From Phalacrocorax aristotelis (lineage: Eukaryota; Chordata; Aves; Suliformes; Phalacrocoracidae), in the NCBI RefSeq assembly GCF_949628215.1, contig NC_134286.1:2728001-2792000 (forward strand): a DNA stretch of 64,000 bases, read 5' to 3'. Position numbers and translations under genes: made by a program. The notes beneath the pieces are model-generated. The model did not search any database and was not told where the DNA came from. It was given only the letters and a program-made list of their open reading frames with translations. Below, piece by piece: positions 8,702-50,300 of this stretch. Each line of letters begins with the position of its first letter. Position 1 is the first letter of the stretch.

Positions 8702-8887
8702 ATTAAAAAGCAGCAACAGGATGTGTTAGGTTTCTTGGAAGCCAACAAAATTGAATTTGAGGAAAAGGATATCGCCGCCAATGAGGAGAATCGGAAATGG
8801 ATGCGCGAGAACGTCCCTGAAGACAGCCGGCCAGCAAGCGGGAACCCCTTGCCGCCCCGGCTCTTCAACGACAGCCGGTACCTCGGG
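8702..8887 (+). CDS. SH3BGRL: SH3BGRL coding exon 2
   Basis: The exon starts after the acceptor ending TTTTGTGACAG and stops before the donor GTAAGG at 8888. It encodes residues 16-77, from [16 protein letters not shown] through the proline-rich NPLPPRLF to SRYLG. It supplies the first long helix and the central strands of the thioredoxin-like fold. There is no cysteine in this exon, as expected for a family without redox activity. The third codon of the exon that is Lys in the human protein is Gln here (IKKQQQ), a mild change. Confidence 0.95.
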
Positions 8888-11800
8888 GTAAGGGACACTC
8901 CAGGTCACCATCTCTTCTCATCCCGTTCCTTTTACTGGCTGCCATAGTCTGTGCTTTGCTGTTGGGATCAGCAAGAACGGACTTAGCCAGCTGTACGTGC
9001 AAGTGTGCAAACTGCGAAGGGCATGGAAGGTGTTAGACGTTTACCCCTTCTCTTGGGCTTTTAATAATTGATTCTTGAATATGCCAGTTTTGCTGTAGAG
9101 CAGAGATTAAAGTTTGGACTTCCTGATTCTCAGATCATTGTGCAGCTTACTGGAATGAGCTCACCACCACCTTGCAGTGTATCTGTATTTTTTTTCCCCT
9201 GTGATTTTTTTCCCCCTCTTATGGCTCTGAAAGTTTATAGTTTCGGTTTGGTTTTTTTTTTTAGTTCTCATGTTCACCATGATTGTGAACTAACACTTCA
9301 CAGAAACCTGGCACTGTTGCATCAACCTTATGTGCTGTAGCAAGTTCAGAGATCTGTTCTGTCCACATGGGGTTTGCCAATATGTGAGGATTCCAGATCA
9401 CTCTCTAGTCTGTTCATCTTCCAAAATAAGTGCTCATATGCAGTGATGTCAGCCATGGCCATAAATCAGTTTTCTGATCCTTCTTGGGATCAGTTTTTGT
9501 GCACTGCTTGCAAAATGAAGGCTGTTGTGGTCCGCTTACTCCAATGCCTTGAACAGATTAAAACTCCTATTGCAAATACAGTTCCTACTTGTAATTATTT
9601 TAATGCTTGATCAAAAGTCAGTTGCCCTGCAGCACTCCTACTCAGCGGGCCATGCTTGAATGATTATTAGATTAACTGTTAATTTTATTTTTAAAACCTA
9701 ATATCTTCTGAAAAGAGCTCACAGTATGTATTCCTCTGGTGCCACGTGTTGGTTTCTAAGTCGTTTTGCAGTCTGGTCCTGACCTGCAAATTTGGTAAGT
9801 CAGAACCTGCCAGTTCTGGACCTTTGTGAGGCAATTCTGTGGCTACTGACAGAAATTATTCTCAATGCAGCAGGATTTTTTTTTTTCCTGCAATAAAAGC
9901 AGAACTTGAAACAACATCCCCAGTGAGTTAACATACCACTTGGCTCTCAAAATTTTACTGACTGTGGTTGTGACATGGGACAAGGTTGGTTTGGAGCGAC
10001 AAATGTAATGATCGATAGTTGTCTGCAGCTGAAAGCCGAGAAGGGGCTAGCCCCGAAGAGCTGAAAATCTCTGTTCAGTTATCCCTCTTTAAAACCAAAC
10101 AAACAAAAAAAAGAGGCAAATCTTTCTGTACCAGTAGGAAGTCCAGTGGCAACAGTACCACCTTTCTCCCTTGGTCTGCCAGAGCTTTAGGATGCAAGCA
10201 CATCACCATACAGTTGTCCTTTGCCAGTGAAATGTTGCCAGATTTCTGCTGCATTGCTGTAGCTGTGCAGCAGAACAGGGCCTTCCTATGCAGTGGGGTG
10301 GCACAGGGAGAGAAAAACCTGTGTGTACCTAGATCTGGATGCTTGCTATCAGAGATGCTTCTAATGTATCCCCAGCTGCAACCCATGACCGATCTGTATA
10401 CTGTAATTTTGGGGACAGGACTACAGATGCTTCAGACCAGTTCCTGCTCTGGGTTTATTTCATCCCCAGCATTTTGGTTGATGTCCCTTTGAACTTTTGA
10501 AGTTCGGTCAATTTGTGTAGCTGGATTCAAGCTACCACAGTTTAGCTTTCAGGAAGGTAAAAGGTAATTCTACGGCCACAAGCTTGAACCTCTTTATGCC
10601 TTTATCTGATCCATCTCAAGCATGAACTTCCCTGTTTGTTTCATCTGATGCAGTATAACTAGCAGAGGAATGAGCATATTGGCTTTTATTGGCCTGTGCA
10701 CGGCAGAAGGGCTGTAACTGTAGATGCCATGCAAGCTGGCAGGAGCCCTGCTCCTTAGTCACAGGCATTCCTTTCCTGGTAGATGCGACGAAGCAGACTG
10801 CTGGACTATGCAGTAGCAAGATAAACAACCCCTTTGTTATCAAGCAGCCCCAGTACTGTCAACAGAAGGGCTTCGGGGAGGATGTAACATAATCATACAC
10901 ATTTTTATCAAACTAGTACCCAAATGCTACGTGTACAAATCAATCAATAATTTGACATCCCCGATCTCTCGGCAGCTTGAATCCTCTGTTCCCTGTACTT
11001 TCTTCTGTTCCAGCTGCAACAGCCTCTTAGAGCTGCCCCTGCACTGAACATGCTGCTGTTTACAAAGAGCTTTTGCTATTTCTTGGGCTTCTGCCTACCA
11101 GACAGCCAAGCATGCGAAGCAGCGTGCCTATAATGGCAGCTCTCTCCCCGACTTCAGCCCGAGACTGAGCCTGCCCTGAGCTGCTGCCTTGCCTTGGGTT
11201 TCTCAGCCAGGACTCCCACATCAAAACATTCCCCAGTAAAGGTGGAGAAAGCTGGTACTGTTGCTTCAGTTGGAAAGGGGGAGAAGGAAAGTCATAGCAC
11301 AGATATGTGCTGAGTTTGGAAATCAGAGCGAGGGAAGTATGTGGTAACTCGGACAATGGTGGACTTGCACAAACCTTCTGGGTTCATTTGGTCAATGTTT
11401 GGCAGCTGCTGTTACTGAGCCACACTGCGGGCTTTTTGCTTGCTCTTTCCTGACTTAGCAGACAACTAAGCTGTGTTGTTTGTACAGCACTGCATTCGGC
11501 CTCAAACATAAACAAGGGCGGAGAAGGAAGCATTGGTTTTTCTTTTATTATTTCATTGGTTTTACCTTCATTTTCCTGGGAAGCGGCTGTGTACATATTT
11601 AGAGCAACCGTAGCGCACTACAAGTACAGTGAAGAGTGCCACCTGTTTTCCTTCGTTTGCATAGACTAATCATTAATGGGAAACATGATGGGAAAGGATG
11701 TACTCTGTCTGCAGGTTTAAATTTAACTTCTAACAGGTTAAAGAGTTAATGTCCATGGTTGCACAGTTGCCATTACTAACCAGTAATTAGCGATGGCACC

Positions 11801-14606
11801 TGTGGGCATCAGTGTTTCTGATGAGAAGGTAAGGGCTCAGCCTGCTCTGGCAGGAGGGATGTCCATGCCAGACCAGTGACAACCACCTTGCTACAGAGGC
11901 TGTCTCTCTGGGAAAGGCGGAAGCACCTCACAGCAGCATCTTGCTGCTACAGATACTGAAATTCCCAGCTTGTCACTTTTCAGACAATACAATTTCGATG
12001 GTATCAGTGCTGCTGATCCTGAGGCGATGCTCTGAATTTTGCATTCGGCCACAGGAAGCAGTTTGCTCGGTGTGGGTTGGGTAACACACCAAACTGAGCT
12101 GCAATTATTTCTGACGATTCATACCGCTGTCTTTTGTTTCCACCCCCCTCCCTGACTCCCATGGTGAAGGACTACGAAGCTTTCTTTGAAGCCCGGGAGA
12201 ACAACGCGGTATATGCGTTTTTAGGCTTGACTGCGCCACCTGGTTCAAAGGTAGGTGTGTATGTTTCTCGCAGTAAACCACAGCCTGTATTTTACACCTT
12301 GTTCTTCTCTGCTTGTAGTAGGACCTTTTACGTGGTCTGTGGTTGCCCCAGTCAATCCACCTGCTGGTCTGACATTCGGTCTTGAGAGGCTTCAGCATCA
12401 CAGCAACAGGCTGGTTTTCCATGCTGGTTTGTTTGGAGGATGCTGTGTTTGCTGGGGGCATCTTCCTCCCCTTCCTTCTACCAGAAAAACTCAGCGTTCA
12501 GTACAGATGCTCTTTTGGTGTCCTCACTGCAGAGCCACCCTGCTCTTTGTGAAGTTGATGGAAAAGCTTTTGTTGCTTGGAAAGCAGGGCTGGGTCAGAT
12601 TCTTCACCAGTAATAATTGTCTCCTACCACTTGATTTTTTTTTTTTGATTGTACACTCTGGGAACAAGTGAACAAGTAGTTAGTATTTGCACTGAAGAAT
12701 GCACAGGAAATCTAGATACAAAAAAAAAATCACAAAACCAAAGAATTATTTCAGTTCAGTGAACAAACTTAATTCATCTGAAGTTTTGATGAGATTTTTA
12801 TTCTAGAAAATACCTTGAAACCAGAGTCACTGTTTTTGAAATAATGTGGTCTTGCTTCAGAGTGATTTCTTCCTCCAGCTTGTTATCTGAAGTCTTGTTT
12901 TCCTTTGCCAATTACAAACTGGGTTGCCGCTTTGCGGATGCAGTGGGCTGGAATTCTCCTTTTGATTTTGATAGGATAGGACAAGCCTGCTTTATACGTT
13001 TCACTTGACAGCAGCAGGATCCTCCAGGTCACTTCCAGCTTTCTTGTTCCGACGGATAAACATGCCGTTTCCTTTCAACCTTATTCACGTAGGAGTTGAG
13101 GGTCATGCTGTCCACATCACTCAGAGGCCTAGTTTTAAAGGTGGATGATGATCCATCAGTATTAAACATTACAAGTTGTGGGTCAGATTGAAACAGTTAG
13201 TGGAGCTACCACTAGAAATTAGTTTTGCTCCCCAAATGTGAACGGTGTAGCAAGGAAAAACTGCCTCGTATGGAGAACTGCAGAGAGCAAAACCTGCGGT
13301 ACAGGCCCCTGTGCCACGCATCGCCGGCGTCAGGAGGCCGGCTGCGCACAGTGCGATGGTCGCGTTAATCTTACTTGAGTTTCTTGAAACACCTGCACAG
13401 CACTGCACAAAAGAGTATGCAGAATGGAGCCAAGGAGTGAGAAAGCAGCACTGAGACCGCAGGACGCATGAAAGCCCATGTGTTTCCCCTCATAGCCGAG
13501 CTCTGGGAAGTGCAGTGGTACTGGAGAGCAGTTGCTGCCGTAATGGATCAGGTCATCTGTCCCTGTAACATTTATGAATGTTGCTGCTTAATTAACCTGC
13601 CAGATTGCAGAAGCAGTCTGCATGGCTGTTAGTTGCTCTGATTCTGTCCTAAGGGGTGGTTTGTAAGGAAGAGGTGAGTTTTAAAAGTGAGAAACATAAC
13701 ATGTTTGTACTCTGCTGAATTTTCATATTGCTTGCTACGGCACGGGGAGGTGCATTCGAGCTGACGAAGATAACCTTTGCATAAGCGACCTTGTACCCAG
13801 TGCATTCTGCTGTTGGGCTGACTTTTGGTGTCCATCCCACAATGACACGATGTCAAATCAAGCTGATTGCCTGCTGCCAAGGAGGAGAAACTGATTTGTA
13901 GATGCTGAAATTGGCATTTAGAGCATAGCTGCATGCAGCTTGGATATGCTACTGTAGTTAATGACATTGCGTCTGCATATGTTGCTACATAAAATGGAAG
14001 GAGTCTGGGATCAAGCTGCGTGCTATCCCAGGAGAGGACCTTGACAGCAAACCTCCATTAAACATCATCGTGAGAGTTTTGGAAAGTTGTTCGACTCTGA
14101 ACACAAAGTTCCAATATTAACGCTAAAGAAGGAGGGCTCAGAAGTGAACATGGGAAGTGCAAGTAACGATTTACTGAGCCCTGGTCCTTTGGCTCGTGCT
14201 TTGGGCTCTGAGAGCACAAATGGACCTACAAACCCAGGGAAAGGTTGGCATTTAATTTATCTTAAGTATCCCCACTTCAAGCAATATGGGTATTAAAGGG
14301 TGAGGATTTGGCGAGTTAAAGGGTGTGAATAATTATTTAAGGACTGAGAGCATGCTCAGTGAGGGGCCTCAAGGGAGAAATAAGAAAGAGTATGAGAGAG
14401 GGATAGTGTCAAATGTGAAAAGCTGAGCCTTTCCCGGGTAACTTGCAGGACCACGCCCAGGGAAATGGAGTTTGACCTTCAAGGTTAGCATGTTCTCTGA
14501 GTTACTTGTACCCACTTTTCCTGGCGATGAGGAAAACACCAGGAATCCTCTCCAGCTTATCACTGCCTGTTTTGAAGAGAAGTACCTTGTCCTCCATTTT
14601 CTGGCC

Positions 14607-14638
<32 letters not shown>

Positions 14639-16500
14639 TGGATGTCACTTCTGTAGTGCCTACGACTGGCTAATGGAGTTGCTGGAAAGCTGAGGGAACT
14701 ATCTTCTCTTTGTTACCATTCAGAGAGTCACTTGTCTTTCAGAGAATATCAAATATCCCTTTTCTTTTTTTCCCCAGGCTTTGTAGACCTTTTTAATCTT
14801 TCCTTCATTCTTCCCCTGCCTTTTCTGCTGTGGAGCGATAGGATGCCCTCGCACGAGCAGCGTGGCTGCTCGGTGACGTCCCGGCTCCACACTTTGGCCT
14901 GCGCCGTGTGGCCAGAGGAGCAGAGCATGGTCCGGGAGCGCGGCAGACCTGAGCCAGCGGTCTGAGCAAGGCCATTCCCACGCCTCTGAAGTAAAAGGCA
15001 GCACAGTGCGACACGCTTGGGCAGATGGCCAGGAAAACCAGAGCGATCCTCCACGTCTAAGATAATGGAGATATGTGTGGTACTTCCTGCCGTGCGGGCG
15101 GGGGTCACCCACTGTGTCCCCTCTTGTACAAGTCTTACAGGCTTCTTGGAAATTCCTGTCTTAGTCCTTTCTCCTCTTGCCTTTATTTGTTTAGCATTCT
15201 GGCTCATGTTAATGATATTGTTGAGTCTGTTATCTTCAGTATTTCTGTGCAGTCACCAAAGCAAACAACTCCATTACATAAAAGTTGAGTTTAGCAGATG
15301 TTGAACTTGTTCCTTTAAAATAAACCATGCTGTCCACCCTGAAGTGCTGCAGTGAGAGCACTGTGACTGCTCATCTTTTTGTAGGCCATGTTGCTGCTAG
15401 CGGATAATTAAATTAATCTTCAGTCAAAAGTACACTTGTAGAAAGCATCTTGAGAAAAAAATTCCTTTTGCATTTCTTCTGTTGTCAGCCTGTTCCCAGT
15501 TGTGACCACCTTACAAAGTCTGAAAGAAGACTGAAAAATGCAGGCTGTTGGTTTTTTTTAATGTTCCTTCTGAGACATACTGAGAACTGTTGGAGGTTAG
15601 CTGGTATGTCTGCTGAACTGCTTCAGCTCTTCTTTCATCTCTGAAGCTCTGTAGGAATGTTTTTGTGTAGCCCAAGGGCACCAGATCTATACCCGGTCCC
15701 TGGAGGCGGTGTGGGCTGGGAGCCCAGGGCATGGAGAGCAGGCAGTGGGCAGGAGCGGTTCCCAAGGAGCGCATCACCACTGGCTTGCTTGCCCTGCCGC
15801 AGGAAGCCAGGATTACTCAGCAGTGCTGGTGCCAGGACAGACCTTCTGCCAGCCCCGGGATGGAGCTCACGCATGGGTCTTCAGCTGGACCAGCTCCCAG
15901 CCCTGTCTAAGGGCTCACAGGCTGCTCTGACCACCCTTCTGGCAGGCGAGAGCTAAACGCTGGCTTTTGGTTGTTTGGTAGGGTTTAGTTCAGAAAGGAA
16001 ATGATGACGTCTCTGCTGAGACCTGGTGGTTGGTTTTTTTTGATATAGACACTTATTAGTTAGAGAATTCCTTTTCCATTTAACCATAGTTCTTCAAATC
16101 TTCTTTGATCTCTATTTAGTTCTTGTGTCCTAACACAAAATCAGGGATGACCCATTATATCTGATTGCCTTTTGTTTTAAACTTTTATGGTCAAAACTGG
16201 TCTTGGGCGCTGGGTGGAATATTCCTGCAGGTCCTATTTGAGCTAGCTTAGAACTGGAGTTAAAGCCAGCACCGTATGGGACTTGGTTTGTAATGTCATC
16301 GTAGGCAGCAGGAAGTCCCTTCGTGAGCTGGGTTTGGTGCTGCTCAACACTTAACCGTGTATTGCTGCAATTTTTGTGATGTCGTATGTTGGTGCCTAAC
16401 ACAGGTACGTGTAAATTGTCACCTTTCATAAAGGACTAACACGTGTAATTCTGTTCTGCTCTTTCAGGAAGCTGAAGCACTGGCAAAGCAGCAAGCGTGA
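8702..16500 (+). CDS. SH3BGRL: SH3BGRL, 3' three coding exons (5' partial gene)
   Basis: Small adaptor-like protein with a thioredoxin/glutaredoxin fold that lacks the catalytic CxxC. The family is cytosolic and binds partners through a proline-rich SH3/EVH1-type motif. Coding pieces are 8702-8887, 12170-12250 and 16468-16500, all joined in phase 0. They give 62, 27 and 10 codons, i.e. residues 16-114 if the missing first exon supplies the 15 residues expected from the 114-residue human protein. The match to human SH3BGRL as I remember it is close: the segments [38 protein letters not shown] and the terminal KQQA are diagnostic for SH3BGRL rather than SH3BGRL2 or SH3BGRL3. The proline-rich site reads NPLPPRLF. 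Exon 1 is not visible in 1-8701 and must lie upstream. Recognition is near certain; the splice borders are inferred from sequence only. Confidence 0.96.
8888..12169 (+). other. SH3BGRL: SH3BGRL intron 2
   Basis: Bounded by the donor GTAAGG at 8888 and the acceptor AG at 12168-12169. I see no additional exon, RNA gene or recognisable repeat in it. Confidence 0.85.
12170..12250 (+). CDS. SH3BGRL: SH3BGRL coding exon 3
   Basis: 27 codons, residues 78-104: [20 protein letters not shown] followed by TAPPGSK. The donor is GTAGGT at 12251. The acceptor is unusual. The intron ends ATGGTGAAG, so the AG is preceded by A rather than a pyrimidine, and the C-rich tract lies about 10 bases further up. Both the phase and the protein fit SH3BGRL, so this border is still the best choice. 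Confidence 0.94.
12251..16467 (+). other. SH3BGRL: SH3BGRL intron 3
   Basis: Bounded by GTAGGT at 12251 and the acceptor AG at 16466-16467. It contains a 28-base A run (14607-14634) and a small CpG-rich patch near 13315-13375. No exon or RNA gene is supported. Confidence 0.85.
14607..14634 (+). repeat. A28 homopolymer
   Basis: Uninterrupted run of 28 A in SH3BGRL intron 3. No recognisable retrocopy body precedes it. Confidence 0.9.
16468..16500 (+). CDS. SH3BGRL: SH3BGRL terminal coding exon with stop
   Basis: After the acceptor CTCTTTCAG the exon reads [10 protein letters not shown] and then TGA at 16498-16500. The human protein ends EAEVQAKQQA, so this short tail confirms both the gene and the stop. 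The 3' UTR follows directly. Confidence 0.94.
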   Translation, partial: EAEALAKQQA

Positions 16501-20722: not shown

Positions 20723-21189
20723 ATTTGTTCCATGTCTTGGTTTTCTCGGGTTTTTTTATTTAACATGAGAAAAAGGTATTAGCTAGTCCTGTGTGCTCAG
20801 GCCCACCAATCGAGAAATGCAAGAGAGAAGATTTACCAAGAACAGCATAAATTTTTTTTTCAAAAGGACTAATTTAAATCCACTAACATAATAGATTCAG
20901 ACTAATCAGTAAAAGCTTTATCAGACCTCTCCACTGATGCAACCCATTACCTGGGGCCAAGCCATTGAAGTTTCCTTAGTGTTTTCCTCCTTTGCCAGCC
21001 TCGCTTTTTCAGGATGTTTTGGTGACGTGGATACAAGAGTGGGAAAGTGCCTACAGTTCTGCCTCGCGCGAGGCATCCTGTGATCGCATTTCGAGCTGAT
21101 TCAAGGTCTAAGGGGAAACGCAGGGCAAGTGATTTTTGGTTTATGCACACAGAACTTGATCAGATACACGGTTCACAGTCACGGACGTG

Positions 21190-21880
21190 GCATTAAATCC
21201 AAATTAGCGTTGGCGAAACCCCGGGGCCGAGCCCACGGACGGCAGATCCCAGCACCGACCCGCGCAGCGGCTCTAGGCACGGTTCAGCCCCGTTCCCCTC
21301 AGCCGAGGCTCAAAGGACGAGGCAGGCGGCGGGACGGGATGGGGCAGCGGCTCTGCCCTTCCTCCCGCCGCCCTACCCACGGCCGACGGGCCGAGGAACC
21401 GGGCCCAACCCCGGGCGCCTGCGGCCTGCCTCTGCCTCACCGGGAGGACGAGAAGCAGCCGAGCCGCCGCCGCCCGGGCCAGGGGATCGCCCCAACCCGG
21501 TGCAACAGCCCGTAATGGCGCCCGTGTCCCCTCACGGCCCGCCGCCTCACGCCGTTGCTGCGGCAACCGACAGCCACACAGCGACCGAGGCGGGCCTGCC
21601 TCGCCTTTCCCATTGGCCGCTCCTCTTGTCTGTCAGCGCGAAGAGCCGCCCCTTCCGGTAGTGGCGGGCGGCGGGCGGGCTGCCCCGCCCGAGGCGGGCT
21701 GCCCCGGGGGCGGAAAGCGCTTCAGCAGCCGCGGGACGAGCCGTGTGGGAGCGCGCGGCCAGGTCAGTGCGGGCCGCTGCCCGCAGGCGGGAGGTGGCGG
21801 CGGAGGGACGCGGGTGGGCGGGCTCGGGAGGCGTCGCCGAAGGGCGGGAACGTGTGTTCTGGTAAAAGCGAGGAGCTCCT
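21190..21880. promoter_or_regulatory. CpG-island promoter
   Basis: A sharp GC- and CpG-rich block in otherwise AT-rich DNA, TATA-less in appearance. It contains an inverted CCAAT box (ATTGG, 21612-21616), GC-box sequence (CCGCCC, 21647-21652) and an ETS/GABP-type site CCTTCCGG at 21651-21658. These are typical core elements of a housekeeping-style promoter. The nearest downstream + strand coding exon is the TASL-family gene at 25.8 kb, so the simplest reading is that this is its promoter. A divergent transcript on the minus strand is also possible. Confidence 0.8.
21660..21762 (+). other. Candidate non-coding first exon (start approximate)
   Basis: Immediately 3' of the ETS and CCAAT elements the sequence reaches GCGCGGCCAG followed by GTCAGT at 21763, a good splice donor. 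If spliced to the acceptor ending at 25811, it would form the 5' UTR of the TASL-family gene, with an intron of about 4.05 kb. TASL-family genes carry their coding sequence in a single 3' exon preceded by non-coding exon(s), which fits. The exon start is a guess from promoter position. A second possible donor (GTAAAA at 21861) cannot be excluded. Confidence 0.45.
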
Positions 21881-24852
21881 TGTGCGCGAAGGTGCTTGAG
21901 AACTGCGAGAACTCTGGGCTGGTGAAATGGTACTGCTGGCTTAAACGGAAAAGAAAAGGCTTGCGACAGCTACGTGTGGAAAAAAAGCCAGTTAAGGTGC
22001 TCAACTTCAGTTTCACGTTAGCATGCGTGTAAAACACATAATCTGGGCTGAAATAAGGGACTTTATGTACCTGCTGCTATAGTTAATGTGGTATAGTAAT
22101 TGTGTATGGTAACGCTCATTGCTGCGTTATCTGTTTTGTCCATATAGAATGACATAGTAAAATTTATACGCTGTGTATACATTCTGCTGTAAGGTTAGCC
22201 TCGGGGTTCGGCCGTACTTGTCTTGCCGGCTGTTTCTTCTAACTGCAGTCTGTTTTCAGAAATAAATGCTTCTGAAATAACTCTGGTTTTGTCTTATTTT
22301 GATTTTATTTTTGTAACTGTAAGTGTTTTTTTTTCTAAGATCTTACTGATTGAAGGCTAGTAACTTCCTTGGATATTGGTGCATTTGACACCTGAGTACA
22401 ACTGAAAAGGAAGGTGACTTGTTTTTAATCACTCAAGACTCATAACCACCTTGATTTCTTCCCTCCCCCCCTCCCTCTGGGTTACCCCTCTGTTTTGTTG
22501 AAGCTACCGCACAAATCTGTGGCCGCAGCGGGCGCTAGTTCCAGGCTCAGAGGAGGAGGCACGGTTTTAGAGCTACGTGGAATTTGGACCACTCTCCTTC
22601 CCGTGAGGTTTGGTCCCCCCTGCACTGCGGGCAGGAGTACTCCGTTGAAGTCACAACCACATCTACCAGCCAGGAGGCAGCCGTGCGAGATGATTAAAAA
22701 TAATTTTGAACAGCCTTTAAATACAAAATGAGCTTTCTATAAATTCAGTGGGAATAAAAATAGCTTTCGTTCTGCCTCCATAAAACAGAAGTATTTTGTG
22801 AAATATAGGAGATGAGGGAAGAGGAATAATTTGGACCTATGTGGTTATAGTCACTTCAAAACTTGCTTGAATTCATTTCTAAGGCACATCGTTATTTTAC
22901 TGCCAAAACATGTTGAATGACGGGTTGCAATCAAGATGTTGCCGTACTGTTACCTTTACGCTCTAGTTTTGTTTTACATTTGTGTCTCGCTCCTATCGTT
23001 ACACTAAACAGTGCCTATTTAAGAGTCTAGTACTTGGATGAGATTCAGTTGCTGATTTTTTTTTTAATCTTCTGAAAAAAAGGAAATTTAGAAAACAAAC
23101 AGAAAACTCGTCAGGCTGTCTATGCAGCGGGCCTAGTGCTGGGGCAGGGAGCCGCGTGGCTTCAGCCTGCGTGAGAAGGACACGCTAAAAACACTATGGG
23201 GACACCTCTGCCATGCCATTGAGACAGAGGTGGGGTTTGAGCCTAGAGAAAGTGTCTTTGCTCCGTGACGGACAAGGCTGTCCACAAGCTCTCTGATGGC
23301 TACTGCTTTCAAAGAGGAAGCTTCTCATATCTGCATCTTGTAGACAAACGATATTTCATCAAAATCCTGATGAAATGCAGTTGCCGACTTCTTCCCCTCC
23401 AGAAGAAGGTCACAAGACTGTAAATGTAGCTGCTTGTTTCAAAAGGGGAAATGGTGTAAATAACATCGCCTGTGTAAGTCAGGTGGGTGATAGCGCAAAG
23501 CTGACCTTCTGCAGATGGAAGTGTTCGGTGGAATTCAGTTTCGATTTTGAACAGCCTGGTGAAGTCCAGGCACCCTGATCATTTAGTAGCCCTTGTTGTT
23601 TTTTAACTGATGCGTTACGGCAGTTAGCGACTCATCGGCATTGCGCCACAGTCAGAAACATCTCAATTCATTTTTTTAACATCCTCTTTTAGGTTTGCTG
23701 TCACTTTGTATTAAAAAACCGCGCACTGTTCCAGTGGGATCACTTCTGTTTTAAATGGGAAAAAAACGGGGAACTAAATCATGTGTGCGTCAGGTTTTTT
23801 TTTCCACACAGACAGCAGTGAAGAAGAGTATGTAAGAATCTAGTCTCCCAGCAGCTGTAGTAGGAGAGTTCTGGGCTATGTGATTATCCGCCTCTCTTAC
23901 CCTGCTAGGACTGGTAAGTCTGGGCTTTTTGTGGTCTTTTTTTTTTCTTATGCTTTGTTCCAGAATGCAGGCACCATTTACTTCATTTGAAAGAGAGCAA
24001 TTTTGCTAAGTTTACCATATTTTAGCTCTTACATTAGCACTATGAGCATTTTCAAAGCAATACAGCAAAATATTTTAGCACGTAAGGATCTGGGTACCTG
24101 TGTCCTGTTTTTCAGAAGCAAATGAGGCATGCAGCATTCTGAACTCCATTGTCACTCAGCAAGATTTAGACTGCCAAGTACTCTTGTCTCTTTCGAAAAT
24201 GGTTCTTGGTTTCCTAAATCCTTTAAGTGCTTAAGAAAATGTTGTCCTGCTTTTTGCATGTGTAAATGGTTCTGTTTATGCTCGTATAGCCAGGAGAAGG
24301 CTTGGTGTACTGCCATTCTCGACTGCTTTGGTCTCACTTGCAGGCTTATCGCAATTCCAGTGTTGTCTTCAGGGAGGCAACAGTGTGATTTAAGCTAAAA
24401 GAGAGCCAAAAATTAAAAAACAGCAAACGGTAGTACTTTAGCAATGTGTCAATTCAGCAGGGAAGTCAAAAATTTCCATCTCTCGAGTAACTGGAGTTTT
24501 AGAATAGCTTTCTGGAAGGAGTACTGGGATTAAAAAAGGTGACCCAGAGTATCAAGTTTTGTTGCAGAACAAATAAGCCAGAGTCCACGTTTTGGTTGCT
24601 GATAGAGCAAATGAGTAGAGTGAGGAGGATCTTTCTGGCTATATATCAGATTTGCAGAGGTTTCGTCTGTGTGGAGCGCTGCCTAGTGACTCGCATGGCG
24701 TTGCTACTGATGTCAATTGCCAGCACTGTGAAAAGGATTGAGCCTTAATTGTCCGTGATAGAAGTAGAGTTCTTGGTGCATTTCAAACAGCATGCCAGTA
24801 TGTCATGTTCTTACTATGTACCCTTCAGTAAAACTGCCTCATCTCTTGCTCC

Positions 24853-24869: not shown

Positions 24870-25858
24870 CCCAGCTATTTCAAACCACGAGCGCACTGGG
24901 GGTGTGTGAAGGTACTTGAAATATGTGGAGATTTAAAAAAACATTTGAAGAACAGAGGAATTTTCTTGTGTTTGTCTTTCCCATTCCTCCATAAGAGGAG
25001 CATTTTTTCCTTAGCGAGTTTAGGTCAGACTTGGCTCTAAATGGAAAGATTCCCATTGATTTTAACAGTAGGTGGTTTGAAAAGGAATGATATGGAGTCA
25101 TTAAATGTAGTAGATTATTTTGAGACATATTGGCTACCTTTAATTATTCATGTGCATTTAGTAAAACTGTGGAGCCTATAGATGCACAAACATGCTACCC
25201 ATCACTTCATTGTTGGGGAAGACAAATTAAATATTTATATCTTTTTAAAATCATCATTCAGAGGGATTCTAAAAACACTCGTATATGTGAACTGCATTTT
25301 GGATGCAGTCCTGAAGAACCGTCAGCATCTTTTGAAGCTGCTTGGCACCTCACAGGAGGGCTCAGGCCAATTCAGAATCAACCTCTCTGACTGAATTTGA
25401 TCTTGTTTTCCTTCCTATGTCACCTCTTTAGCTCTTAGAAATTGTTGTCTTTCAATGAAAAAAAAAATGATTTGCAACTGATGGTAGTGATATAGACAAG
25501 TAAAATACTTTTGCTGATTTTTACAGCTCATAAGTGTGATTTATCTCAACTAGCCATAATGCAGAAGAGATACCTAGGGACAGAAGTGATATTACAGTTG
25601 AAGAACCCAGTTAATGCCCTTCCTATATCTTCAGAATGACTTTTGGTGGCATGGTAAACATGCAGTTTACTGTTTACTAAAAATAAATATTCTAGAGAAA
25701 AAGAAAAATAACAGACAGACTTTATAAAGAGAGCACTGTTCATTTTCTATTATTATTCCTCTTTTTCCAAGTAAGTTTGAGGCACTCTGCCTGTCTTTCT
25801 TTCACTCACAGGACTACATGGAACTCTGGTGATTAGACTGTTACTCACGCTTGTCATC

Positions 25859-26836
25859 ATGTTGGCAGAAGGCATCTTAACTAGCCTCATATATAAGGAA
25901 AGCTGTCATCAAGATAAGCCTCGCAAATCTCATGCATCCAAAAAGGATAAAGAGGGAATCTGGAGACAGAAACTCGTAGACAACCCAACAATTAAAGGCT
26001 TTGCTGATGGACATGAGAAGCAGGATGAGATCTCTCCTAAAAGTAGCAAAATGGAACACAGGAGCGGTCCTCAATGGAGATCTGTAAAAGAGGTACCTGC
26101 AAAAGATCAGAAAACACTTGTTAAAGGAACCATATCGCCAGCTTTACATATCCCCAAAAGAGAGCGGAGTCCCCAGCAGATGGATTTGTATAGATCCTGG
26201 TCGTGCAACAGCATTTATCAGCACTACCCTGACTTACATATTGGGGGGGACCGTGTGGGGGACCATACGTGCGATTCAGGCTGTGTTTTGGACCATGTGT
26301 GCGATGAACTTCCCAATGGCCCTGTTCTGCTGTCCATAGATATTCCTCTAGGTCAGTCCCTTCTGTGTGAGCATCCCGAAAAGGCAAGTGTCAAGTCCCT
26401 GCCTGGAGATGAAGCTGGAGAAAGGAGTAGCATGCTCTGTGTGGAGCCTCTTTCAAACTCCATGCTCAACAAGTACATGGAAACAAAAGTGGCAGAGCTC
26501 TATAAACAGTTCTTTGAAGAAAACTTGACCAGGTGTGGTTCTGTAACAAACCTCCTCACCTGCAGTTTGATAAGGAATAACCTGAATCTGATAAGCTTTC
26601 AGATATCCCAGGAGCAGAATATAGAAACATCAAAAGCCAGAGAAGTGCTCTTGCACTCCTTAGCTTTGATTAGTTTGTGCAACACTACCAACAGAAATAG
26701 CTCTGAATTTAGTACTCCAAACTTACAAATCTCAAACCCAGCATGTGTGAAAGAGCTGCAGGACACAGTTTACATCGTGACTGATCTGCTTAGCCGAAGA
26801 GATGAATACGATTCGGATACGAATATTTCACTCTAA
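25859..26836 (+). CDS. TASL2: TASL-family adaptor (probable TASL2), intact
   Basis: 325 residues, uninterrupted, in one exon. TASL proteins are lysosomal innate-immune adaptors: the N-terminus docks on the transporter SLC15A4, and a C-terminal pLxIS motif, once phosphorylated, recruits IRF5 downstream of TLR7/8/9. Visible matches to human TASL (from memory): N-terminal MLAEGILTSLIY against MLSEGYLSGLEY; a central block with DLHIGGDRV against DLQIAGGQV; LNKYMETKVAELYKQ against LNEYLEQKVVELYKQ; the motif ETSKAR; and STPNLQIS, where the pLxIS serine is residue 292 (codon 26732-26734). The start was chosen because MLAEG is the family N-terminus and has A at -3. The open frame extends 10 codons upstream but without an ATG. 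TASL itself maps to the Xp21 block in mammals, whereas mouse TASL2 (Gm6377) lies on X, as I recall near Sh3bgrl. Adjacency to SH3BGRL therefore favours TASL2; a TASL relocation is the alternative. Confidence 0.88.
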   Translation: MLAEGILTSLIYKESCHQDKPRKSHASKKDKEGIWRQKLVDNPTIKGFADGHEKQDEISPKSSKMEHRSGPQWRSVKEVPAKDQKTLVKGTISPALHIPKRERSPQQMDLYRSWSCNSIYQHYPDLHIGGDRVGDHTCDSGCVLDHVCDELPNGPVLLSIDIPLGQSLLCEHPEKASVKSLPGDEAGERSSMLCVEPLSNSMLNKYMETKVAELYKQFFEENLTRCGSVTNLLTCSLIRNNLNLISFQISQEQNIETSKAREVLLHSLALISLCNTTNRNSSEFSTPNLQISNPACVKELQDTVYIVTDLLSRRDEYDSDTNISL

Positions 26837-26883: not shown

Positions 26884-26889
26884 AATAAA
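26884..26889 (+). terminator. TASL2: Poly(A) signal AATAAA, TASL2-type gene, proximal
   Basis: Canonical signal 48 bases after the stop codon, followed by a T-rich stretch and CCTTTGTTAG. It would give a very short 3' UTR. Distal signals exist at 27479 and 27500. Confidence 0.5.
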
Positions 26890-41120: not shown

Positions 41121-41351
41121 CTGCGTCGTTACTCTCCTCCGTCCTCCAGGCCGCCAGGGTCAGAGCCCCGCAAGGCTCCCCGTCAATGCCGCTGCTGGAG
41201 GACGTGATCCCGGAGAACATCAGCTGGGCTGCCGAGGAAGCCCAGGGCAACGAATCCTCAGAGCACGCGTTTTTCTCTCTGGATTATCAGCATGTTCAAG
41301 TCCCCTTTGAGATCACGCTCTGGATCATGCTTGCATCCTTGGCCAAAATAG
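41075..41351 (+). CDS. Na+/H+ exchanger exon 1: signal-like N-terminus and first membrane helix
   Basis: Residues 1-92. The chosen ATG starts [20 protein letters not shown], a short polar head and a hydrophobic stretch like the signal/first segment of NHE1 and NHE2. An acidic extracellular part follows with two N-glycosylation sequons (NISW, NESS). The conserved segment [19 protein letters not shown] and AKI closes the exon. The donor is GTAAAG at 41352. The frame stays open upstream and in-frame ATGs at 40922 and 40958 would add an Arg-rich extension, so the start is tentative. An overlapping upstream ATG lies at 41052 in another frame. Confidence 0.85.
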
Positions 41352-44300
41352 GTAAAGCATCTGGAGAGGGTGAGGAAGGACAGGGTTCACCGTGGGGATG
41401 GTGTGGGCAGGGGTGGCCTTTGCTTCACCTCTTGTCCAGTCCTGGTGCCTGAGAACGTACCAAGTCCTAAGGATGCACATACGCTGTGCCAGATATACTG
41501 CATGCACGGAAAAGAACTACCTAGTTGCATTTTAGGTTGGAAATGATGGGTTTCCATCTCAAAATTCACACCTGTGGGTGTTGCTGTTAGTAGGAAAACT
41601 CTCAGGGTTTCCAGGAATTTTGTTTACCTGCAGTACGCACCAAGGTGCGCATTCGTCTCGTTTAGCTTGCCAGCGTGCATGTTGTCCACTGACATCCTCA
41701 TCTTAAAATGAAGGCTCAGTGCTCTTAAAAAAGGGTGCTGTGTCTGGCCAGCCACAAGGAATAATTCAGTCCATGTGCAGGGCGTTACAGAGCCTAAAAT
41801 AAAATGTCTCTGCGTCCAGGAGGTTATCTGTAATGACACCTAAGAAATCGTATTTTGTATAACTTGGACTCTTTTTTTCTGCAAAACTGGGCATAGGAAA
41901 GTTAAAATTATAGGTTCTTTTTTTTTTTTCTTCCAGAAATTGTGATCACTTCTGTTAAATTACTGATATAAAAGTTATTTTATGGCTTTTTTTAAAATTA
42001 TTTTTTTCCTCCGAAGGGAGAAGTCTCTGAGATTCGTTTAGATCAGAATTCCTTTCAGATGGAAATGGTCTTTGTTTTGCTGGTCTGCATATGATGAGAT
42101 CTCATCTCTATTAACATGCATGAAGGAATAATAACGATCACAGTTATTTTTTTTTCTTATTAGTCCTATTCCAGTTTGGCTTGTTTCAATTACTTTCTTT
42201 TAATAACTCACCTCGAGTACTTATAGCATTTGTTAGCATTTCTCTCTAACGTTGGGTGTTGCACAAGGCTGGCTTGATTGGGCTTGTTTCAATGTTGCCT
42301 TTAGCTTTAAGTGTTAATGATTAAATAATATTAAAAGTGGCACCATTTATAATTAATGACAATGCTTTTTGTGATTTTTTTTTAACATATGGAATCTATA
42401 TTGTGTTTAAAACAAGCAGTTGCTATTCACATTAGTGCCGAAGATAGCGTGCTAACTAGATTATATCATAAATAATTCCAAATACCTTTTTATTTATGCA
42501 GATTCTTTAGTTTTTCTATTTGTGTGTTACCTAAAAATATATCTTTAACCTTATGCTGTGATGAATGCAGTCTGAACCAAAAATAATTTTAGAAGGTTTG
42601 GTATTTTCAGTAATCTTTCAGATTTTCTAGCCAATTTCTGACTGAGTGACTTCACCTTAATTGTGTGCGTTTATCCCTGCCACTCCAAAGCGTAGGCTGC
42701 TGAGGGGTGGGCGCTCGGGTTGGTGCCCTTCAGCCCGTTCGGGCTGATGAGATAATACAACTTTTTTTTCTCTTCATCCCCTTCCAGGGTTTCATCTCTA
42801 TAACAAGCTGCCTTCTGTCGTTCCCGAAAGCTGTTTATTGATATTTGTAGGACTCATCATGGGGGGAATCATCTACGGCTTAAACGACAAGTCACCGCCT
42901 GTTATGGACAGCGACATCTTTTTCCTCTACCTGCTGCCACCCATCGTCCTTGATGCAGGGTACTTCATGCCCAGCCGCCCCTTCTTTGAGAACATCGGTA
43001 CTATCCTCCTCTACGCGGTCGTGGGGACGATATGGAACGTGTTTGGGATTGGCTTTTCCCTGTACGGGATCTGCCAGGTGGAAGCCTTTCACCTGCAGGA
43101 CGTGTCGTTGCTCCACAACCTCCTGTTCGGCAGCCTGATCGCCGCCGTGGATCCCGTGGCGGTGTTAGCGGTCTTCGAAGAGATACACGTCAATGAAAAG
43201 CTACACATTTTGGTCTTCGGCGAATCGCTCCTGAATGACGCGGTGACGGTGGTAAGGGCTAGCCTTTATTTTGAGTATTTAACATTCCGAGGAAGGATGG
43301 GCTGGTGCTGAGAGGTGGGATGTGAGATCTGCAGAGCGAAGAGGCATCAAGAGCCTCTTCTAGTGGAGGAGTCCTGCTCCGCTTCTCTGGCGTGAGGTCC
43401 TGAGAAGCTTTCAGGTGAACATCTCTTCGCCTGTGTGTCTGGGGATAGAAAAGCACGTGAGTGCCACAGCACTCCCCTGGCCGGAGCCTGACCTCCCGAG
43501 CAGGACGCTGACCCTGCACTGGCAGAGATCCTGGCAGCGTGTTTTAGTGTCATTGCTGCGTATGCCCATGTCTGGTGAATGTCTTGTTTACGGTCATTTT
43601 TCCTCTTTCATTTTTCACCCAGGTGCTCTACAAGCTATTTCGATCTTTCTGCGAAATGCCAACCATCACAAGTGTGGATGTTTTTGCTGGAGTTGGAAAA
43701 TTCTTTGTGGTTGGGATAGGAGGAGTTCTAGTAGGTCTTACTTTTGGGATGACCGCCGCCTTTACCACACGATTCACCAAGGATATCCGCGTCATCGAAC
43801 CGCTCTTTGTCTTCCTGTACAGCTATCTTTGCTACCTCACTGCTGAAATGTTTCACCTTTCGGGGATCGTGGCGTAAGTATGTCCCAGCATCGTGTCTGT
43901 CCGGGAAAGCTTTCTGGCTGTATTTACTGAAAAGCATCAGGAGAAGTTTTAAAGTAAGTTTGCTGAGCTGGAAATCTGTGTACGGCAGCGAAGAGTGAGT
44001 ATAGAAGCCTGTGGAAGAGCTGAGAGGTGTAACCCCGTTTCACACGCCCCACACCATTACACACCAATGGCCACAGCTGCAAGTCACAAGCAATCCAGAT
44101 GACTCCTGGGCAAGCTTCGGAGGGCTGGTCAGTGTTTGTAGGTTATGGAGGAATGTTTATTTGAACTCCATGTTTTTCATTTGGAAACCCTTGAACTTTC
44201 AAGCAGCGAGACGTCTAGAGGGTTTGGCAAGCCAGAAGAGGCTTTCTGGGCATGTTTTGTTATTTTCCATGTGTGGCCCAGTCAAAACTAACATTTGAAG

Positions 44301-47300
44301 AGCTGCAAGGGCTATTTAATCAAAACCTCAGAAAGGTTTGGACTGAGTTTACAGCACATCTGTTCTAGCACCCCCGTCCTGATCCGCGTGCCCTGCCTGC
44401 CAGCTGCCTTTGGGTGGTGGCCCCAAAGGCGTGCTGAGGCAGACCCGGCAGTGTCGGAGCAGAGTGAGTGATGGGTGGGAGCTGTGTCTCCCCTACAGAG
44501 CTGGTGCCTGGAAATGTTCCTACTGTTTGGGAGCGGAGGGCTCTAATGGAAACCTCTGCTTTGGAGATTCAGACTTCTGTCAGAAGTTCAGACACAGCTC
44601 ATGAGTTTTTCTGGTCTCCTGAGTGAGGGTGTCATCTGTCATCTCTATCTCCAGTAACGTTTGAAATCTGACCAATTTCAGCCAAAGTTGTCAGAGATCA
44701 AGGTTTCAAAGGTACTAAACCCAAACTGAGTGCACTTTACTACAGCACAGTCAGTCCTACGCGCTCTTCAATCTAAAAAGCGCTTTAGAGCGTGGAAGGG
44801 TTTACCCTGTGGAGCTTTGTATGACCAGGGTGTAGCAACATGGGGCAGACAAGGACTGCCCGTGCCCTGCAGCCGAGGCCCGCGCTCCGTCAGGTACCAC
44901 CTCGCATATTCCCCTGCAGCTTTTTGGATCAGCGAAGAGAAGCTACTCGTTTCTGTAAATTCGGTCTTTCACAAATTGTAATTTATAGATAATACCATTA
45001 ATTTACATTTCATTTTACTGAGTAGGTCTTTCAATAAAATGAATAATTTTGGGCCAGATCCTTCAGTTTTAGGAGAGGAAACTGAGCTTTGGGCTTACCT
45101 CATGCATTTCACTTGCAGAGCAAGTGCTGAGAAAAAAATAGATATAATAATCTTAATGACCAAGAAAGGTCACCTTGGAAAGCAGAGACAGATGAAAAGC
45201 AGAGTGATTCAGTCCTCCTGGTTTCTGTGGGCTGGTATCTGTGGCATTTGGTTCTCCTCCCTAAACTAAGTCAACTGGTGCCAAGGATCACAACCAATTA
45301 TTTAATATTTCCCTAAAAACTATAAAGTGCACTTAGACGGCATTGATGGCTACAGTGTAAACAACTGCAAATCCGATAATAATGAACATAAAAATCAAAT
45401 AAAGAAATTAAGTCAGGTACCAGCTAGGTGCAGAGTATCTGGGAGATCTATTTTAAAACTAATGATACTGCTTTGGACAGAAACCATTCCTCTGTCTTGC
45501 AGATTCTTTTTTCCTCGAATGGTTAATAGGAGCAATATTGTAGCATTACTGAAAACAATTCTAGCTCTGGGAATAGGTAAGAGAAAGCCTATTTATAGGA
45601 GCGAAAGACAGAACAGTGAAATAAATATGCTGCATAATCATCATGGAGCAGAAAACATTCAATCCTAATGGTGTCTCCTTCTATCAATCACAATCTACTG
45701 TGCCCATTACGGAACCTATTTTCTATTCTTTTGAATAATGCATTGTTTCTAAAGCAAAACGATCGCAAAGGCAGCTGATTCCTGCACTGCTGGTCTTATA
45801 ATTGCCAAATTATAAATGCCTCTTCCAGATATCTTGATTTCAAACAATTCAGTCATTTGTGACCAGGGAATACTGTATTATAAGCAGCAGATTCTGGCAG
45901 TGTGTTTCTTTGAAAAATAAATTGATTGCCCAAAAAATCAATTTTACATAGTCAAAAAAAAAAAAAAAAAAAAAAGAGAAGATCTGTGAATGCCACCCAA
46001 CCTGCTAAACAGTCCTGCAAATGTTTTTTAGCTTGGTTTCTTTTGTTTCTTCTTCCCCCCTTGCCCTAGTGGCACTGCCTGCCTTCGAAGCTGTGACAGA
46101 ACAGGTCAAGTTTATTTCCTGTCTGTGAATCTGGTGTGAACCCGTAGCCTCTTCCCAAGGATCTTCCCAGACCACGGCTCTGGGAGTCACTTTCCACAAA
46201 TATTTGTTAGATTTCTTAGTTCCTAGCTGGAGCTATTTTATCCACTGTTTACTGAGGCAGATACAGAATCAGAAGAATTGTTTTTTTATTATTATTATTT
46301 ATTTTAGATTGTGGTTCAATCCCTGTTACTCTTCCTGGCTCGGTGCTTTATGCAAAGCGGGTCACTCTGAAAAGGATCAAAAGGATCAAAAAAGACCGAT
46401 TTAAAAATATTTTAAGTATTGGTTCATTTTCTTAGGAGAAGAAAAATGGGGACTCAAACAGCATTAGATAAAAAAAGGGATCTGAATCTTGGTCTCGTGC
46501 TGCTGGATAATGCAGGATCTCTCTGCCCAGTAAGAGCATTGTGCCTTTGCTGAGCCTGACCTTTTGTACCCTGTGCCTTTACTACAAGTCCTCTCCCTGA
46601 AGCCCGGTTTTAACTTCAGACAAACCCGAATGTTTCTTTCTCCTTCAAAAAAATGTGTGGTGTTCTGATGGCAATGAGCAAAACCAAATAACAACTATTT
46701 CTAAATGAAAGAAACAGAAATGTCTGTGTTTGGGGTTTGTTTTGTTTGAATGCAAAGCCCAGTAATCGGCAGCTCCCAGGGGGTGGAAGTACATCTTCGT
46801 TTGAAAACGTGGTTTTTTTTTCCTTGTAATTTCTTATTTGTTGCTCCAGCTAAATACCTGACAGTGTCTTCCTATAATAGTGTTGCCGATTTTCTTAGTG
46901 CTGTAAGTAGAGCAGAAGTGGATGTAGCCGTTGTTCATTCCTTTGTCCTGGTCCAACAATAGATGCAGTGGAGATCTGTTAGTGCTTCTCTGAGGAGCCA
47001 GAGGAAAGTGGCCCTTGCTCTGCTTTTGTCAGGAGCAGCAACGCAGTGGCCGACGGTGTCTTCCTGAAATAAATAAATAGCTGTGAAGGAGAGAATTGGG
47101 GTCTTCGGTTTCATACAGGTTCTAAAGCCACAACCAGAGCGCGGTTGGCTCTGCCCACCTGCAAACCGTCCTGTTTGCTGCGGGCAGCCCTGGGTTTTTT
47201 CCATCACAGCCCAAGTAATGCAAAGAATCTCCTTTGTGAAATTCTGGGGTGAAATGTATTGTTTTCACTGGAAAGCAGTAGTCGCTCAGCTGTTTTCTGA

Positions 47301-50300
47301 ATACTTCTTAGCTGAGAGGACGTGCTATGGATAATGTGCTGTGGAGGCCACCACCTATCTTAACACCTCTTGGCATGTATATGGGTTGCTTTCCTGTCCT
47401 GGTCACAGCTGGTGCTTCAAGCCAGTCTGCCAGACCCAGGCGCACTTCTGCAAGCCGAGGATCTACTGCTCTGCGGACTTGTCTGCATGTGATATAAAAT
47501 ATGAAGAGACTTACCATTATGTCCCCCGTGAAAGGATGTTTTAATGCAATAAAACTCCGTGTGGATGGCCTTACCGAATACAAGTGGAAATCAGATCTCA
47601 GAAACGTAAATCCATTTTGCTATTGCTGGTACAATATTTAGAACAAAATGTTTCTGTCCAGGTTAAAATATAAAAAATGGAGCTTCGACTCTTTGAGTGC
47701 TCAATTGTTTTGACCTTCTAAGATTGCTGGCCTGAAAATGTATTGATTTGAAAAGCTGATGAATTAGGCTAACCACATGTTCCCTGTAACTTGAAGAACC
47801 AATTATCCATGAAAAATTGCAAGGCAGAAGTTTTAATTGGTGCTGCACACTTCTGAAGTGACCTTGGATACGCGGTACCTGAGGAGGTCAGATGTTCCGA
47901 CTGCAGCAGCGGCATTTCTTGGCTCATTGTGCAGCCTTATGAGTGTGCTTGAGCATTTTATTGTCTCTTGGTTGCATGGAGTCAATGGCTTCCTAGCTGT
48001 GCCCAAGCAACATACAGTGCAAGGCTGGTCAGGCTTGGAAATATACAGTGCGAGTCCTACGCTGTCGCATAGTTGAGTTTCTCCAACTCCAAATTGGCTT
48101 TGGTCCCTTGGGTGAAGGGGTACAGCATTCGAGCTGCTCTTAAACTGCACCCATTCTGAGTCCTACGAGAACCTGCTGTAGTGACCAGATACCAGCCAAA
48201 CTCGGAGGAGTCCCATTCACGTTTCTCACGTGGAGAAACAAGTCTCCCATTCCCTCAAACATCTTTTTCTCAGCCGGGCAAAATAGGTAACGTGGGCTTC
48301 TAAGCAGGGAACTCTTGAGCCGAGATGGTTAGAGTTTGGCAAAGTTAAACAATGTGGTGTGATGGGAAGAGTTGGGTGTAGTTAATCACAGGCGTTGCTG
48401 TGTGGCTGTGATAAATGCAATAGAAGGTGAGTTGTTTATCTGTTAGAAAACAGATTCAGCCAGTCTGGTCAACCCATATAGTATCTTATTGTCCTGGTGG
48501 TCCTCCTGATGTTATTGGTCTGGTGTAGGAAGCAAATCACTACCCAGTGAGATGTCTGCAGACAACTAAGAATTGAAGCCTATTTCTTTATAGATGACAA
48601 TGTGTCAATTTTGTGTGCTTAAGTAGAAAAATTTCTTGTTTCTTTTTCTCAGAATCATTGCATGTGCCATGGGCATGAAACGTTATGTGGAGGCCAACAT
48701 CTCTCTGAAGTCTCACACCACAGTCAAATACTTCATGAAGATGTGGAGCAGTGTTAGTGATACCCTCATCTTCATCTTTCTTGGAGTTTCCACCATTGGA
48801 GAAAATCATGAGTGGAACTGGCCATACATTTGCTTCACTGTCATTTTCTGTCTCATTTGGAGAGCACTAGGTATGATGAAATTTTGATTTTATTTTTTAT
48901 ATATATAATTATTTATGGGGGTGAAAAATGTGATTCCATTATACGAGAGAATGCTCCTGCCCCCACCGTCATCCTTTCCTGCTTGCTCTGTCTGTGGTTA
49001 TCCCAGATGAGAATGCACGGACTGCAGTGGGACACCCCAGCCGATGCTTCCCCCCTCCTCCATCGCTTGCTCCTTAGCAAGTCCTGCAGGAAAGGATGAT
49101 GGTGGGGGCAGGAGTGTTCTCTCATTTAATGGAATTTCTTATGCTGTGCACTCACCACAGACAGCACTGGTGCTAAATAGAAATTCTCATAATATCTATT
49201 TTATTGACCCCTAGGGCCTTAGACCTCCTTTGATTGCCGTGATCTCCCCTTACATTTCAGTGTATTTTAGTCCCTTGGTATCCTCACAACAGGGAGGAGA
49301 TTGTAAGTACGTAGCTTGGGATCAGAGAGCTGTGTAGAACCGTGGGGCCTCTGACAGCTTATTCTGAATTGCAGAGATTTAAGGGCTTTAATTCATAACA
49401 AGTCTGTGTACAGCAGCATCCCTAAATGGGAAACTGGAGGAACCCTCAAACAGCTGTTCCTGGAGATGCTGTTCTGCTTTACAGAAGAGGATCTGCCCAG
49501 CTTACTGCTGGGTAGGTGAGAACTGGGATCTAAAATGTGAGGATGCTTCTGCTCCTACTCAAGAACTTCAGATAAGGACTGAGGGTGACAGAATTGCACA
49601 GAATCGGGGAACTGCTGAGGTTGACAGGGCCCTCTCGAGATCATCTGGTCCAACGCCCTGCTTAAGCAGGGTCAGCTAGGCAGGACTGGGTCCAGAAGGC
49701 TTTTGATTATCTCCATGGACAGAGACTCTACAACCTCCCTGGGAAACCTATTGCAGTGTTTGACCAACCTCACGGTAAAAAAGCGACCAAGACTTAGTGA
49801 TAACAAGAGGGAGATAGCTACTTATGAAAATACTTCCCTGGTAATTGTGGCTAAAGGTAATCTTCTTGAGATCAGTTACAATGAAAGCCTGAGTCCTGGT
49901 CCCAGAATACTCTGGGATCCCATTTTCATGCATTGTAAATGACCAGAAACAGAGATGCGCTGTTTTACCATCTTCCCCAGTTGTATCTCGTGCTGGTTTG
50001 GTGCTCAGAGAGGCTGATTCTCCATTGCCTCTTACACTGTGCAGTTACTGTCACCAAAGTGAGCGCAGAGTGCCTGCCTTCCCATTTATGCATGTGTTTA
50101 TATATTTACTATATCTGCAAATATAACAGAGCATGCATTTTGGCAGAGAGTTTGAGAGCTAAACAACATTCAACAGGATTTATGTTTGCAAACCACTGAG
50201 TCAACCAGAGCGAACTCAAACTTGACAGACACTTCAAGAAATTGCTTAAATAGGGTAGGCCATGGTTAGCAAGACATAGCAGAATGGGTTTTATTAGCTG

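Follow-up and report, generated by a model that had tools for sequence, protein, structure and literature searches.

The DNA considered here is a stretch of 64,000 nt from Phalacrocorax aristotelis (GCF_949628215.1, NC_134286.1, positions 2728001-2792000), hereafter the window; the assembly searched comprises 1.279 Gb in 352 contigs labelled C1, C11, C36 and so on, the window lying on C11. It holds an intact gene of TASL type, which reads as one open frame without a single interruption over 325 codons, from its ATG to a TAA at 26834-26836 (Table 1). In a Pfam scan, residues 1-293 of the encoded protein cover positions 1-299 of the 300 of the TASL profile PF15133 (340.8 bits, E 1.3e-101, for a curated cut-off of 27 bits), and residues 196-293 match the solved TASL chain 9irc_B (E 6.2e-16). 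The frame is real and not a product of chance, the match to the TASL family being far above what chance would give.

Table 1. Features of the window, with positions counted from its first nucleotide.
Feature	Position	Strand	Basis
SH3BGRL exon match, neighbouring gene (approximate ends)	8702..8899	+	tblastn with human sequence
SH3BGRL exon match, neighbouring gene	12170..12250	+	tblastn with human sequence
CpG-island-like stretch, candidate promoter of the TASL2-type gene	21001..22000	.	GC 0.64-0.75, inferred
Splice-acceptor-like AG (pyrimidine tract, then CACAG), candidate	25810..25811	+	sequence inspection
TASL2-type coding sequence, one open frame, 325 aa and stop	25859..26836	+	ORF translation, Pfam TASL E 1.3e-101
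N-terminal 13 residues, MLAEGILTSLIYK, counterpart of the SLC15A4-docking helix of TASL	25859..25897	+	paralogue alignment, published contacts
Conserved C-terminal region, residues 200-277, three modelled helices (low confidence)	26456..26689	+	
pLxIS-type motif STPNLQIS, residues 285-292	26711..26734	+	translation, paralogue alignment
33-residue tail beyond pLxIS, mostly helix in a low-confidence model	26735..26833	+	Pfam, alignment, AlphaFold
Candidate polyadenylation signal AATAAA, about 50 bases 3' of the stop	26884..26889	+	

Both ends by which the family is recognised can be followed residue by residue against the second TASL gene of this genome, located on C1 and described below. The N-terminus reads MLAEGILTSLIY, beginning with MLAEG, and M1, L2, E4, G5, L7 and Y12 are identical in the C1 protein, position 6 being Ile here and Tyr there. 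In human TASL, residues 1-14 are reported to be helical and to reach into the inward-facing cavity of SLC15A4, E4K abolishing binding and Y6A, a change of the contacting Tyr6, weakening it (PMC10589346); for chicken SLC15A4, the first 13 residues of TASL are described as sufficient, and mutation of Glu4 as disrupting the interaction completely (PMC10502012). With Ile in place of the contacting Tyr6, docking of the window protein on SLC15A4 may therefore differ from that of TASL. A search of its 33 N-terminal residues against solved chains returned no match. Towards the other end, L289, I291 and S292 of the motif (NLQIS) are identical in the C1 protein, and the tail that follows lies outside the Pfam match save for its first residue, the C1 protein having merely a short end there. 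An AlphaFold model built from a two-sequence input places helices, all at low confidence, at residues 3-12, 115-122, 200-224, 229-253, 257-277 and 294-322, the last of these lying in the tail; with a mean pLDDT of 36.8, it is too weak a basis to build on.

Upstream of the start codon, the acceptor-like AG together with the CpG-rich stretch (CpG observed/expected 0.91-1.0 and GC 0.64-0.75 across three 500-base steps) makes one or more non-coding 5' exons possible, and the sequence suggests that 5' untranslated exon(s) lie 5' of that site; mouse Tasl is reported to have one coding exon (PMC11759703). A short upstream open reading frame, ATG GAA CTC TGG TGA, sits at 25818-25832, 3' of the acceptor-like AG and 5' of the start codon, with which it is out of frame.

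Regarding the neighbourhood, two SH3BGRL exon matches lie upstream of the gene on the same strand, followed by a weak third piece at 16465-16497 (tblastn, E 24). It is on this SH3BGRL side that we take TASL2 of mouse to be placed. Downstream, at about 41282-61085, the forward strand carries exon fragments belonging to an NHE1-like sodium/proton exchanger. Across 168 residues, the longest fragment is about 62% identical to human NHE1; this gene may be a paralogue of NHE1 instead of NHE1 itself. On all these points, the original prediction, made from the letters of the window, stands as it was written: it had described a complete reading frame for an intact TASL-type protein beside SH3BGRL, with the pLxIS motif STPNLQIS and its serine at residue 292 and with the SLC15A4-docking N-terminus kept, as is borne out by M1, L2 and E4 even though Ile6 replaces Tyr.

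A TASL-family search of the whole genome found three places: one on C1 scores highest (397.7 bits), the window gene comes next (340.7 bits), and the third, on C36, is weak. The first, C1:91541400-91542257, is a complete TASL of 291 residues in a single open frame (MLSEGYLYGIAY...STPSLHIS...). With human sequences as tblastn queries, GK was found as 17 pieces in four loci at about 91.574-91.607 Mb on the same contig, starting about 32 kb from TASL, and NR0B1 as two pieces at about 91.421-91.422 Mb, about 119 kb from TASL and on the side opposite GK. The order NR0B1-TASL-GK is that of human Xp21, and the C1 gene is the ordinary TASL. As a complete TASL thus sits between NR0B1 and GK, the genome carries a pair of TASL-type genes, and the one in the window is no relocated sole TASL. 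The want of a separate TASL elsewhere had been named beforehand as what would speak against a distinct TASL2, and a search for one yields a complete gene; likewise, the synteny comparison proposed at the time puts the window gene on the SH3BGRL side and the C1 gene on the GK side, with NR0B1 opposite. By eye, some frames in the flanks of the C1 TASL resemble CR1 reverse transcriptase. As for C36:24337706-24337861, its profile match (18.9 bits, E 0.69) falls below the cut-off and was set aside as probable noise; it covers 52 residues in a short open stretch with an acceptor-like CTTTACAG, and it could conceivably be the genuine terminal exon of some gene.

The window gene is very probably an intact TASL paralogue of TASL2 type that goes back to an old duplication and has been kept next to SH3BGRL, in addition to the TASL of the NR0B1-GK block. 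With TASL (CXorf21, PF15133, 9irc_B) it shares nearly the full profile, M1-L2, E4, L7, Y12, the C-terminal region and pLxIS; it differs from it by an identity of 35% to the C1 protein (96/272 aligned residues), by Ile6 for Tyr6, by its 33-residue tail beyond pLxIS and by its location in the SH3BGRL neighbourhood rather than between NR0B1 and GK. The closest known counterpart is mouse TASL2 (Gm6377), likewise a TASL paralogue coexisting with TASL and conserved in its N-terminal and pLxIS regions. Mouse TASL2 is reported to need its first 8 residues for binding SLC15A4, and these as well as pLxIS for IRF5 activation, and to bind mouse but not human SLC15A4 (PMC11759703). Unlike this functionally tested protein, the window gene is known from its sequence, and its orthology to Gm6377 is inferred. 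According to the same source, TASL2 functions in mouse, is missing from the human genome and has orthologues in other vertebrates (PMC11759703), so that the original prediction's statement of a gene functional in mouse and degraded in humans agrees with it for the mouse and differs in wording for the human. A literature search over titles and abstract openings found no study of a bird TASL2. With TASL2 orthologues already in print, the window gene adds a good new example of the gene pair described in mice.

Docking, phosphorylation, recruitment of an IRF and expression are what would be expected of the window protein from its motifs and by analogy with mouse TASL2. The N-terminal helix, with its free Met1 and with Glu4, would enter the inward-open cavity of lysosomal SLC15A4; the C-terminal helical region would present Ser292 of pLxIS to a kinase for phosphorylation; the phosphorylated motif would then recruit an IRF, which is IRF5 in mammals, and the latter, acting downstream of endosomal TLRs, would switch on genes for cytokines and interferons.

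It is at the step of IRF recruitment that the most serious alternative arises, namely that the window gene encodes a real TASL-type adaptor acting via another IRF, with IRF7 as the obvious candidate, IRF5 being missing. Two domain searches of the assembly, with the IRF-3 domain (10 matches in 5 places) and with the IRF DNA-binding domain (15 matches, 14 of them above the cut-off, in 7 places), found no IRF5. By eye, we take five of these places to be IRF10 (C8), IRF6 (C21), IRF4 (C2), IRF8 (C13) and IRF7 (C5); the two further ones are presumably of IRF1/IRF2 type (C4 and C8). The exon on C21 has the IRF5 structure 3dsh as its best PDB match, no IRF6 chain being among the five matches listed; in direct comparison, it is nearer IRF6 (112/128) than IRF5 (76/128). 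By eye, no IRF3, IRF5 or IRF9 could be recognised among the seven places, and this is an assembly with a pair of TASL-type adaptors. Against the use of another IRF stands the report that GC-rich avian genes are often falsely declared missing, IRF3 and IRF9 being such cases, and that IRF5 of duck and emu could be obtained only by assembling or predicting it from reads and contigs (PMC12220609). A gap in the assembly is therefore likelier than a loss of IRF5, and an adaptor working through another IRF is unlikely. Going further, TASL and TASL2 could have been kept though IRF5 was lost, the SLC15A4-TASL platform having been rewired to another IRF, e.g. IRF7, and the Ile6 helix and the C-terminal tail having become specialised, a scenario that we regard as quite unlikely. 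The original prediction offered either two TLR7-to-IRF5 adaptors or a replacement for one: two TASL-type genes are present, and the IRF5 end of the link is uncertain here, no place for IRF5 having been found. The question raised is through which IRF the TASL-type adaptors act where IRF5 proves elusive.

A second alternative, that the window gene is a recent, lineage-specific duplicate or retrocopy of the C1 TASL and not a TASL2 of mouse type, bears on the age of the split between the paralogues. In its favour, both genes have a single open coding frame; against it, an acceptor-like site lies shortly 5' of the window gene's ATG. In the C-terminal region, identity to 9irc_B amounts to 66 of 94 residues for the C1 TASL and to 41 of 94 for the window gene, the paralogues agreeing with each other at 43 of 98. 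Site patterns were compared among the three sequences over 99 columns, of which 8 were gapped and 91 used, as a short-stretch proxy and not a tree: all three agree in 34 columns, both TASLs are united against the window gene in 30, all differ in 15, and the window gene agrees with the C1 TASL only in 7 and with 9irc_B only in 5. The tilt towards the C1 TASL is very slight, without the marked excess that a recent duplication should give, so that the split is most likely older than the separation of this animal from the species of 9irc_B, as far as this proxy shows. Along with the 35% identity between the paralogues and the 30 columns joining both TASLs, it makes a recent local duplication unlikely, and the location on the SH3BGRL side, where mouse TASL2 presumably sits, also counts against it. 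The window gene might conceivably be a fast-evolving younger copy; as a whole, a recent duplicate or retrocopy appears very unlikely. The earlier proposal of an old TASL2 lineage kept in this animal is thus strengthened by an intact copy distinct from the C1 TASL and by site patterns arguing for an old split, its remaining element, the orthology to Gm6377, standing as a probable one. The findings favour an early division of TASL into two adaptors, both kept in this bird; if the split is old, the TASL-only state of humans would be a derived loss.

Synonymous sites between the two paralogues are saturated (pS 0.815), and their dN/dS is consequently uninformative on selection. The notion of a decaying or unexpressed relic whose frame is still open by luck can point to the altered contact residue at position 6, but it is most improbable in view of 325 stop-free codons, a match to nearly the full Pfam profile with the key residues kept, and a nonsynonymous difference from the C1 TASL that drops from pN 0.515 in the middle of the protein to 0.381 in its C-terminal region.

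For an intact TASL2-type adaptor beside TASL, a setting for testing exists in the chicken, since a gene under the label CXORF21 appears in a list of immune genes with differential expression, the source not specifying which paralogue is measured (PMC6890255), and since transcripts of TLR7, TLR21 and SLC15A4 are reported from putative plasmacytoid dendritic cells (PMC10634274). Bird immunology would gain two candidate adaptors to examine downstream of TLR7 and TLR21.
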